20,187 nt of DNA from a virus. The stretch is taken from positions 1 through 20,187 of IMG/VR virus record IMGVR_UViG_3300033146_000839. One strand, 5' to 3'. The notes under the pieces were generated by a model. The model had not been told where the DNA came from. It was given only the letters and a program-made list of their open reading frames with translations, and made no database searches. Shown here piece after piece: positions 2,898 through 20,020 of this stretch (position 1 is its first letter; each line of letters starts with the position of its first letter). A program made the translations under genes and the position numbers.

Positions 2898-2926
2898 TTG
2901 ACAATTCATTAAACTCTTGTTATAAT
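2898..2926 (+). promoter_or_regulatory. Consensus sigma70 promoter with extended -10
   Basis: TTGACA at 2898-2903 and TATAAT at 2921-2926, separated by exactly 17 bases, with TG at 2918-2919 giving the extended -10 TGTTATAAT. Both hexamers match the Escherichia coli consensus at every position. Transcription would start near 2933, about 28 bases before the TTG start of the nuclease gene. It begins two bases after the stop of the membrane-protein gene. A fully consensus host-type promoter within T4-type late genes implies expression by unmodified host RNA polymerase early in infection. Confidence 0.85.
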
Positions 2927-2960
2927 ATAATAAACATTTAATTAACTAATGGAGTTTTAA

Positions 2961-3668
2961 TTGAAATATTCGCCTTATTCATTCACCAAAATTGAATCTT
3001 ACCTCAAATGTCCAAAAATATTTCAATATAAATATATTGAGAAATTAAAGATTAAAGTCGATCCAAGTCATTTTGAAAAGGGTAGATATTATCATTCAGT
3101 CTTAGAATATTATCCCAAAGAAATTGATTTTTATTTTAAATATACTGACGAAGCAACACAAGAAATTTATAAAGAAACTATTCAAAGGTTCATTGAGCAT
3201 CCTCACGTTCAAGAATTATTGAATAACAAATTTGCTTCTGAATTAGAATTTAAGTTTGATGATAAAATGGATTTAACCGATATTAGTAAATGGCAAAGTC
3301 ATTTATATGGTTATATTGATTTTATTGGTAAAGATGAAGAAATATATGTTATTGATTGGAAAAGTAAAGATCATGGAGTACGCTTTCCAACTAACAAACA
3401 ACAATTAGAAATGTATGCTGGTTGGATATTTAAAGCTCGACCAAAATTACAAAAAATCAAATGTGAATTTGCTTATATTGAAAATATTACATTTGAGACA
3501 TTTGAATATACTCGTGAACAGGGTTTAGGGTTCGTTCAAGATATTGAAGATAGAATTAAGATTATTGAAAATGATCTAAAATTTGATAAGAAATTATCAA
3601 AGAAATGTACTAAGTGTGATTATTTTAATAATTGTAAACCATTTAATATTAGTGTTAAAAGGAATTAA
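2961..3668 (+). CDS. PD-(D/E)XK nuclease of the Cas4/RecB type with probable Fe-S cysteines
   Basis: A 235-residue nuclease of the PDDEXK_1 superfamily, which also includes Cas4, the AddB C-terminus and RecB. The motifs are in the expected order: YSFTKIESYLKCP with Cys17; GRYYHSVLE with the active-site His45; GYIDF with Asp120; IDWKSK with Asp132 and Lys134; and QLEMY (Gln148/Tyr152). A C-terminal cluster KKCTKCDYFNNCKP supplies Cys216, Cys219 and Cys225. With Cys17 these make the four-cysteine arrangement that binds a [4Fe-4S] cluster in Cas4, AddB and Dna2. All catalytic residues are present. The start is TTG 2961, supported by TAATGGAG (2948-2954) six bases upstream; no in-frame ATG is near. 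It is the first gene after a consensus sigma70 promoter. The family's activity is 5' or 3' exonuclease or flap cleavage on DNA; its role here (recombination, host DNA degradation, end processing) is unknown. Confidence 0.88.
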   Translation: MKYSPYSFTKIESYLKCPKIFQYKYIEKLKIKVDPSHFEKGRYYHSVLEYYPKEIDFYFKYTDEATQEIYKETIQRFIEHPHVQELLNNKFASELEFKFDDKMDLTDISKWQSHLYGYIDFIGKDEEIYVIDWKSKDHGVRFPTNKQQLEMYAGWIFKARPKLQKIKCEFAYIENITFETFEYTREQGLGFVQDIEDRIKIIENDLKFDKKLSKKCTKCDYFNNCKPFNISVKRN

Positions 3669-4177
3669 TGATGAGTCGTGGATTATATCAAGTACATTAT
3701 CCTAAAATTGGGAAAGTAACAATTAAAATTAAAAATATTATTATGAAATATAATCATAATGATATTGTTGAAGAACAAGCTTTCTTTGCGAACTATCCAC
3801 ATATTTTTAAAGCAAGACCAGATTTAGATAACGTTAATGTTAACGTTAATGCGCCTCAAGAAAAAACTGTACGTGAGGTTGAAGAATTTGTGCCAATTGC
3901 TTTTGAAACAGAACCATCTGAAGTACAGACGGTAGAAGCAATTGAAGAAATTCCTATTCCAACACCAACACCAGAATCGGATGTTGAAGGATTTAAGGAA
4001 TTACCGATTGAAGAAGTTCAAGAAGATATTGTTGAATATGAAATTGAGAAAGCGGGAAAAGGTTGGTATCGTGTACTTGACAAAAACGGTAATCAAGTCT
4101 TTCCTCTTGATACAACCAAAAAATGCCGAAAGAAAGCTGCCGAAACATTTATATCCACAGAAAGGGATGAACAATGA
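3668..4177 (+). CDS. Acidic linker protein with a GWY C-terminal domain (copy 1)
   Basis: A 169-residue protein in three parts: a small beta-rich N-terminal segment (GLYQVHYPKIGKVTIKIKN) with the phrase YNHNDIVEE, an acidic low-complexity linker rich in Glu, Val, Pro and Thr (residues 60-117), and a C-terminal domain YEIEKAGKGWYRVLDKNGNQ running to residue 164. The C-terminal domain is repeated in the next gene. The ATG at 3668 shares a base with the nuclease stop; a second ATG at 3671 is equally well placed from AAAGGAA (3658-3664), so the first residue is uncertain. The next gene overlaps by four bases. The function is unknown; a short N-terminal domain that reads 'gDIvEE' resembles small phage head-region proteins, which is only an impression. 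Confidence 0.75.
   Translation: MMSRGLYQVHYPKIGKVTIKIKNIIMKYNHNDIVEEQAFFANYPHIFKARPDLDNVNVNVNAPQEKTVREVEEFVPIAFETEPSEVQTVEAIEEIPIPTPTPESDVEGFKELPIEEVQEDIVEYEIEKAGKGWYRVLDKNGNQVFPLDTTKKCRKKAAETFISTERDEQ
3830..3851 (+). repeat. Short tandem repeat, unit AACGTTAATGTT
   Basis: The 12-base unit AACGTTAATGTT (3830-3841) is followed directly by a second, 10-base partial copy AACGTTAATG. It encodes the Asn-Val alternation NVNVNVNA at the start of the acidic linker. It is most simply a replication-slippage expansion in a poorly constrained linker. Confidence 0.6.
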
Positions 4178-5526: not shown

Positions 5527-5562
5527 AAAAGGCGAGTACTTAAAATGGTACTCGCCTTTTTT
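5527..5562 (+). terminator. Intrinsic terminator after gp13
   Basis: Stem GGCGAGTAC (5531-5539) pairs perfectly with GTACTCGCC (5548-5556) around the loop TTAAAATG. The stem is preceded by AAAA (5527-5530) and followed by six T (5557-5562). It ends the unit that starts at the sigma70 promoter at 2898 and lies just before a late promoter. Confidence 0.92.
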
Positions 5563-5567
5563 GTCTT

Positions 5568-5575
5568 TATAAATA
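5568..5575 (+). promoter_or_regulatory. T4-type late promoter for gp14-gp17
   Basis: An exact TATAAATA octamer, the sole essential element of T4 late promoters read by RNA polymerase with gp55. It lies six bases after the terminator's T run and about 30 bases before the gp14 start codon, in the 105-base intergenic gap. Transcription would begin about six bases after the octamer. Confidence 0.82.
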
Positions 5576-18790: not shown

Positions 18791-20020
18791 ATGCCAAAGT
18801 CATTTAAAGAATTATCTCTTGAAAAAGATTTACAAGAACAAAATTTAGGCGAATTTGATATTGTCAAAAAATCTGCGCCTAAATCACTTCTTGAAATGGA
18901 TGATTTATCTGAATTCAATTTAATTATTCGTAAAGAAGAACAAATTGAACAGATTAGTATTGTCGAGGGTGAAAAGGGTAAACAAGGAATCCAAGGTGAA
19001 CAAGGGTTAATTGGTGAACAAGGAATCCAAGGTGAAACCGGACCTATCGGTGTTCAAGGTAAACAAGGACCGAGAGGGATAAGGGGTAAAGATGGAAATA
19101 TCGGACCTCAAGGAATCCAAGGTGAACAAGGCTTAAAAGGTGAAAACGGTTTTGTCGGTGAACAAGGTGAACAAGGCGAACAAGGAATTCAAGGTGAGCA
19201 AGGAATTCAAGGTAAAACTGGTAAGGTCGGAGCTTCTGGTGCTCCCGGGCCAATCGGTGAACAAGGAATTCAAGGTAAACGTGGACCGCAGGGTGTTCCT
19301 GGAGTCGCTGGTCAAAAAGGCGAAAAAGGCGATATTGGGGTTCAAGGAAAACAAGGAATTCAAGGTGAGCAAGGAATTCAAGGAGAAATCGGACCTAAAG
19401 GTAAAACCGGAAAAATAGGTAAAACGGGTGAACAAGGCGAAATCGGTCTCCAAGGAAAAATAGGTAAAACAGGTAAACAAGGTCCGATGGGTGATCGAGG
19501 TTTACGTGGTTACAAGGGTATTCAAGGAATTGCCGGTCCCCAAGGGGAACAAGGGATTCAGGGTGTTCAGGGTGAAATTGGTAAACAAGGTTTAGCTGCT
19601 GAACATCAAATTCAAACAAACGGTGTTCGTTGGAAAAAACCTAATGGTGATTGGGGTGAATGGCTATATGTCAAAGGACAAGCTGGTATTATGTCCAGCG
19701 GTTCGGGTATTGGTCAAGCTGAAGCTTCAGGAATAGCACAACATTTAATTGATAAAGCTTTAGAAGGTTTTGATCCTGGAACTCCAGGCGGTGGTATCAT
19801 TGTTGAAGAAGAACAAGAAGTTATTCACAATGGAACAACTGTTATTGATACACCCTCAGATTTGAAAATTGGTTCACAAGAAATTTATTTGAATGGCATT
19901 AGATTATCAGTTGGTAACAATAGAGATTATTCAATTGATGAAACAAATATACGATTTCTCAATGGTTGGGAATTATTTAATCAAGATATTATAAATATCT
20001 TATATAGTAAAAATATTTAA
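18791..20020 (+). CDS. Collagen-like fibre protein
   Basis: A 409-residue protein. Residues 1-59 are a charged non-repetitive head (MPKSFKELSLEKDLQEQNLG onward). Residues 60-269 are 70 uninterrupted Gly-X-Y triplets, dominated by GIQ, GEQ, GKQ and GKT, the pattern of phage collagen-like triple helices, with few prolines and many Gln, Glu and Lys. The C-terminal domain (270-409) begins HQIQTNGVRWKKPNGDWGEW (a motif frequent after collagen repeats in phage proteins) followed by LYVKG, then a Gly-rich linker and a final beta segment with EIYLNGIRLSVGNNRDYSID. The protein is probably a trimeric surface fibre on head or neck, perhaps host-binding. The start is ATG 18791, three bases after the portal stop, with only a weak ribosome site, which suggests translational coupling to the portal. 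Confidence 0.9.
   Translation: MPKSFKELSLEKDLQEQNLGEFDIVKKSAPKSLLEMDDLSEFNLIIRKEEQIEQISIVEGEKGKQGIQGEQGLIGEQGIQGETGPIGVQGKQGPRGIRGKDGNIGPQGIQGEQGLKGENGFVGEQGEQGEQGIQGEQGIQGKTGKVGASGAPGPIGEQGIQGKRGPQGVPGVAGQKGEKGDIGVQGKQGIQGEQGIQGEIGPKGKTGKIGKTGEQGEIGLQGKIGKTGKQGPMGDRGLRGYKGIQGIAGPQGEQGIQGVQGEIGKQGLAAEHQIQTNGVRWKKPNGDWGEWLYVKGQAGIMSSGSGIGQAEASGIAQHLIDKALEGFDPGTPGGGIIVEEEQEVIHNGTTVIDTPSDLKIGSQEIYLNGIRLSVGNNRDYSIDETNIRFLNGWELFNQDIINILYSKNI
18968..19597 (+). repeat. Collagen-type repeat tract (9-base periodic, 70 Gly-X-Y codons)
   Basis: A 630-base tract coding the triple-helix region. Blocks such as GGAATTCAAGGTGAGCAAGG (19182, 19357) and GGAATCCAAGGTGAACAAGG (18987, 19110) recur almost identically, so it is a recombination-prone region whose copy number may vary between relatives. 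It also creates long open frames on other strands and frames, which are shadows. Confidence 0.9.
19990..19997 (+). promoter_or_regulatory. T4-type late promoter before the last gene
   Basis: An exact TATAAATA octamer within the final codons of the collagen-like gene, 40 bases before the next start codon. Its distance to the start matches the other late promoters in this window, so it is probably functional despite overlapping the coding end. Confidence 0.65.

Follow-up and report, generated by a model that had tools for sequence, protein, structure and literature searches.

Gene content of the locus and its relatives

The analysed DNA (hereafter, the window) is a virus record of 20,187 bases that carries T4-like genes, including gp13 (phrog_211), gp14, gp15, and a gp17-type terminase. 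The best named relatives of the large terminase include Pelagibacter phage HTVC008M, methylophage Melnitz, and cyanophages, at ~40% identity. Searches with the nuclease and gp13 retrieved five syntenic contigs, and wider profile scans added one further relative only (L024); a DNA-level search with the region gave no match among isolated phages. All six relatives, and with them every case of the nuclease-gp13 arrangement, come from a single metagenome (3300033146); these contigs are fragments, and their open reading frame (ORF) lists were made mechanically by a program. The common gene order is a 71-aa ORF, a 244-aa ORF, (in some phages) a PAAR-like and a 373-aa ORF, an 89-aa ORF, the nuclease, two small acidic proteins, gp13, gp14, gp15, and gp16. 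In the relatives, identity to the window proteins is 48-71% for the nuclease and 60-90% for gp13. The features of the locus are reported in Table 1.

Table 1. Features of the nuclease-gp13 locus, with positions in the window
Feature	Position	Strand	Evidence
Sigma70-type extended -10 promoter, TTGACA-17-TATAAT	2898..2926	+	Sequence; kept in six relatives
Predicted start of transcription and the 28-nt leader that follows it, which holds a GGAG Shine-Dalgarno (2951-2954)	2933..2960	+	Start inferred from spacing; without strong sequestering structure
PD-(D/E)XK (RecB/Cas4-like) nuclease, 235 aa, TTG start	2961..3668	+	Pfam PF12705 3.4e-17, PF01930 2.4e-05; phrog_69 exonuclease 9.3e-18
Uncharacterised acidic protein, 169 aa; C-terminal motif common to next gene	3668..4177	+	
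Uncharacterised acidic protein, 173 aa	4174..4695	+	
Neck protein gp13 (head-tail adaptor Ad2), 263 aa	4709..5500	+	phrog_211 3.8e-28; named neck-protein relatives
Intrinsic terminator closing the nuclease-gp13 unit, 14-bp stem and T tract	5527..5560	+	In 5/7 phages
T4-type late promoter element TATAAATA before gp14, opening the next late unit	5568..5575	+	Conserved before gp14 in the window, G001, G002, G003, and G004

Both Pfam matches of the nuclease are above the family cut-offs, and in an alignment of six proteins the catalytic D...(D/E)xK residues (D120 and D132-x-K134) are invariant, which suggests an active RecB/Cas4-like enzyme. Four cysteines (C17, C216, C219, and C225) are also invariant in the six proteins and could perhaps form an iron-sulphur site of the Cas4/AddB type. 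A search of solved structures with the nuclease profile gave no match at 0.01. The window and L003, its nearest relative, use TTG as the start codon of this gene, and the remaining relatives use ATG. The closest relatives of the protein are the RecB-like exonucleases (phrog_69) of Campylobacter and Vibrio T4-like phages, which belong to the same PD-(D/E)XK family and share ~29-32% identity over ~95% of the protein. In those phages the gene lies in replication and recombination neighbourhoods, beside uvsW, DNA polymerase, or SSB/primase, whereas here it lies beside gp13. As far as we searched, the placement of such a promoter, with its nuclease, beside gp13 in the virion block is seen only in the present phage group.

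A C-terminal GxGWYxVxDxNG motif is common to the two small acidic proteins (BLASTP 1e-06), which may be paralogous; neither had a family match among the Pfam and phrog profiles. Elsewhere in the window, a 409-aa protein with long collagen-like GxY repeats (18791-20020) directly follows the portal-type gene. In the reversed contig G004 (31790-35087, L009), the large terminase region is seemingly split into a 135-aa terminase fragment, a 326-aa ORF with its own TATAAATA, and a 576-aa ORF, possibly by an inserted mobile element.

A sigma70-type promoter is conserved before the nuclease gene

The element upstream of the nuclease reads TTGACA ATTCATTAAACTCTTGT TATAAT, and all four features of an extended -10 sigma70 promoter are present: TTGACA, a spacer within 16-18 nt (here 17), TATAAT, and TGn before the -10 (TTGT-TATAAT, with TGT before the -10). 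Its -10 region is TATAATATA and not the T4-type late element TATAAATA. An initial annotation of this DNA had described the element as a complete match to the host consensus, and our sequence scan found the same match again; the consensus meant is the general bacterial one. The promoter occupies the first part of the 64-nt gap between the stop of the 89-aa ORF (2896) and the nuclease start codon. If the last T of the -10 is counted as -7, transcription would start at about 2933, the same position that the annotation had proposed. An A-rich UP-like block was noted as a candidate element.

The pattern TTGACA-N15-19-TATAAT has one match in the window. Shuffled windows held a mean of 0.10 perfect matches, with at least one in 9 of 100 shuffles, and in a general promoter scan weaker sites were not in excess (100 versus 115.5 expected). 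Taken alone, the window is thus only mildly significant evidence for a promoter, and the significance of the match comes from its position and its conservation.

The initial annotation had proposed a comparison with the upstream regions of related phages, and this comparison showed that each of the seven syntenic phages has the element immediately upstream of the nuclease, always with TG and with a spacer of 16 or 17 nt. The match is 12/12 in the window, L004, L005, L006, and L007, 11/12 in L003 (TTGATA), and 10/12 in L024 (TTTACT, a poor -35). When the 120 nt of upstream sequence were shuffled, a match of at least 11/12 with TG appeared in 1-10 of 20,000 trials per phage; the real sequences reach it in six phages out of seven. 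Mean pairwise identity among the seven phages (anchored on the -10, with 0.33 expected by chance from composition) was 1.00 for TG and -10, 0.86 for the -35, 0.36 for the spacer, 0.35 upstream, and 0.36 downstream. The promoter elements are constrained, and the spacer and flanks have drifted to near chance, a pattern that points to a clear footprint of selection confined to the promoter elements. The presence of the same element at the same place in six relatives with the same gene order argues that the promoter is real.

The promoter belongs to a class that precedes early genes

Sites of the same kind (at least 11/12 matches, with TG) were counted in six contigs, for a total of ~191 kb: all 23 of them are on the coding strand, with no site on the opposite one, and shuffled sequences gave ~0.7. 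In G004, G001, and G005 the genes that follow include those for the large subunit of topoisomerase II, a 410-aa phrog_2319 protein, the processivity clamp, DNA polymerase, UvsY, and a gp55-type late sigma factor. Thus, the sites stand before early or replication genes and not before late virion genes, with the exception of two that sit well inside genes (G004 4462 and 33026), because of which a good match alone is no proof of use. Expression of the gene for the gp55-type late sigma factor has to precede late transcription, and the class can therefore be read as pre-late.

Judged from the genes that they precede, the TTGACA/TG/TATAAT sites are the putative early promoter class of this phage group, and the nuclease is a predicted early island in the late virion block. 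In G004, UvsY, which follows the major head protein, is likewise an early gene among late genes. The class of genes preceded by such sites and the strict conservation of the element support the earlier proposal of a host-type promoter firing before the late switch. On the other hand, that proposal treated a perfect promoter as unusual, whereas the early genes of this group normally carry near-perfect promoters.

Late promoter elements and the end of the transcription unit

The window holds seven matches to TATAAATA, a number not clearly above chance (4.05 expected). Those at 5568, 9692, and 16487 are intergenic and conserved in the relatives, which agrees with the initial description of the other recognisable promoters of the window as T4-type; those at 1523, 3027, and 19990 are inside genes. 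In general, TATAAATA elements precede gp14, gp18, the 150-aa gene before the portal, and other late genes. One lies before a UvsW-like helicase in G004; in T4, UvsW is late. Late elements are also found upstream of the unit in relatives (G001 18218, and G004 20812 and 21902).

In the window no strong terminator was predicted between 2926 and 5527, and none was found inside the units of the relatives; L004 and L005 have weak 6-bp hairpins within the first of the two small genes, and these were judged by-products of coding sequence. The terminator after gp13, which in the window is followed by the TATAAATA at 5568 and then by gp14, is kept in the window, L003, L004, L005 (where the hairpin is visible in the sequence and its score comes from the opposite strand), and L006. 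It is missing in L007, where gp14 directly follows gp13, and in L024, where extra sequence with a small ORF lies between the two genes and has no such stem.

As no terminator intervenes before 5527, early transcription from this promoter should run through gp13. A T4-style hairpin that blocks early translation was sought for the nuclease, the small genes, and gp13, and the folds were no stronger than those of shuffled sequences; the predicted folds leave the nuclease and gp13 ribosome binding sites accessible. The initial annotation had proposed that the nuclease and the three genes after it, up to the terminator, may be made early. This is supported as far as the predicted early transcript goes, which covers all four genes.

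Timing of the nuclease and of gp13

The explanation that we prefer, and consider very probable, is that 2898-2926 is a functional early promoter driving a unit of the nuclease, the two small proteins, and gp13 up to the terminator at 5527-5560, as an early island. Host RNA polymerase with its primary sigma factor would recognise the promoter once the phage DNA enters, and would transcribe this short unit. The own promoter of the nuclease, together with the neighbours of its relatives, suggests an early role: the enzyme would be required at an early stage, probably in recombination, replication, or the processing of host DNA, and would keep its own promoter for this reason. As the last gene of the unit, gp13 would be transcribed early, and probably again late, by gp55-dependent read-through from upstream or from a start inside the nuclease gene. 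We judge early gp13 mRNA to be likely. Early synthesis of gp13 protein is plausible; that a meaningful part of the protein is made early is a more tentative proposal, to which we would give somewhat less than even weight.

Late transcription of gp13 is probable because of the late elements upstream in the relatives and because TATAAATA occurs at nt 587-602 of the nuclease gene in four of the seven phages, with a chance of 0.03-0.09 each under synonymous codons. This intragenic element is a possible internal late promoter for gp13, a reading made post hoc. All four copies cover the same codons (I-I-N) toward the 3' end of the gene, at 27338 in G004 (reversed), 21568 in G005, 7389 in G003 (reversed), and 3455 in G002 (L004); at that place TATAAATA is absent from the window and from L003. 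The TATAAATA at 3027 was also considered as a late promoter for gp13 and discarded, as its presence is expected from the codons (chance 0.79).

Among the alternatives, the one closest to our explanation opposes only the part of it that concerns gp13: the promoter would serve the nuclease alone, perhaps with the small genes, and gp13 would in practice be late, through upstream read-through or the TATAAATA inside the nuclease gene, its early mRNA being minor or untranslated. Of 29 distant contigs in which gp13 could be seen, not one carried the nuclease or, immediately ahead of gp13, a site of at least 11/12 (the upstream sequence was often short); nor was the nuclease found near gp13 or the terminase in the distant contigs. 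The promoter thus tracks the nuclease, and appears to belong to it, because distant phages that have gp13 and no adjacent nuclease are without it. The intragenic element of the four phages, the late elements upstream in the relatives, and the T4 precedent of e and soc, whose early transcripts are poorly translated (PMC3014915), point in the same direction. However, the sole TATAAATA inside the nuclease gene of the window is the codon-expected one, the ribosome binding site of gp13 is not hidden by structure, and no terminator separates gp13 from the early promoter. Overall, we give this alternative close to an even chance. The opposite proposal, that gp13 is deliberately made early in this phage group, for an early non-structural role or to be stockpiled before assembly, comes from its position in the nuclease unit with no adjacent late promoter, and from the terminator and then late promoter that separate it from gp14 in five of the seven phages; we consider it unlikely.

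The promoter could also be active through infection, as a delayed-early or middle promoter, in a group that may lack a MotA-type system and rely on sigma70 promoters for every pre-late gene. Indeed, the same class precedes uvsY, a middle gene in T4, and no MotA or AsiA match was found in the contigs, which are fragments and were searched without a positive control. A MotA-dependent middle promoter was itself rejected: the MotA box (TGCTTTA) is absent at -30, where TTGACAATTCATTAAAC stands instead, and the full -35 is present. Against a promoter that is not strictly early, a full -35 with an extended -10 needs no activator, and the sequence does not separate immediate from delayed early. We hold this reading to be possible but less likely than not. 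Lastly, the shuffled windows with a perfect match could be taken to mean that the element is a coincidence in AT-rich DNA and no promoter. A chance match is contradicted by the position-specific conservation in seven phages despite diverged flanks, and the complete strand bias of the promoter class also goes against it; thus, we regard coincidence as extremely improbable.

Near-consensus host promoters mark early genes in these seven uncultured T4-like phages, and early genes can thereby be called from sequence, even inside virion blocks. It follows as a prediction that the RecB/Cas4-like nuclease should be made early and that gp13 mRNA should already be there ahead of the late switch.

Comparison with known systems

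The pairing of host-sigma early promoters with TATAAATA late promoters is already well described in T4-like phages (PMC1524935, PMC9004378), and the element at 2898-2926 is a new, well-conserved member of the known T4-like host-sigma early promoters. In T4, RB69, RB49, RB43, Aeh1, and 44RR, such promoters lie upstream of early-gene orthologues as well as of novel early ORFs (PMC1524935). The likeness to the T4-type early promoters lies in the TATAAT-like -10, the GT-rich sequence before it, and the presence of a -35 (PMC1524935). The T4 -35 is GTTTAC at -36 to -31, whereas here it is the plain bacterial TTGACA, nearer to the G at -33 reported for RB49, RB43, and Aeh1 (PMC1524935). The -35 varies among T4-like phages, and none of the seven phages has GTTTAC as its -35: six have TTGACA or TTGATA and one (L024) TTTACT. 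The promoter would thus work like those of the T4-like early class, without being of the T4 subtype.

The marine T4-like methylophage Melnitz has a similar division, with sigma70 promoters taken as early and TATAAAT-type promoters taken as late, both predicted by a general program (PMC9004378). Compared with Melnitz, the class described here is backed by a comparison of seven phages, and one copy of it lies in the virion block. The nearest parallel for gp13 is that of T4 e and soc, late-function genes that are carried on early transcripts with their translation held back, an RNA helix blocking it early in infection (PMC3014915). T4 gene e has this helix and an adjoining late promoter, whereas for gp13 no such helix is predicted and no late element lies directly before the gene.
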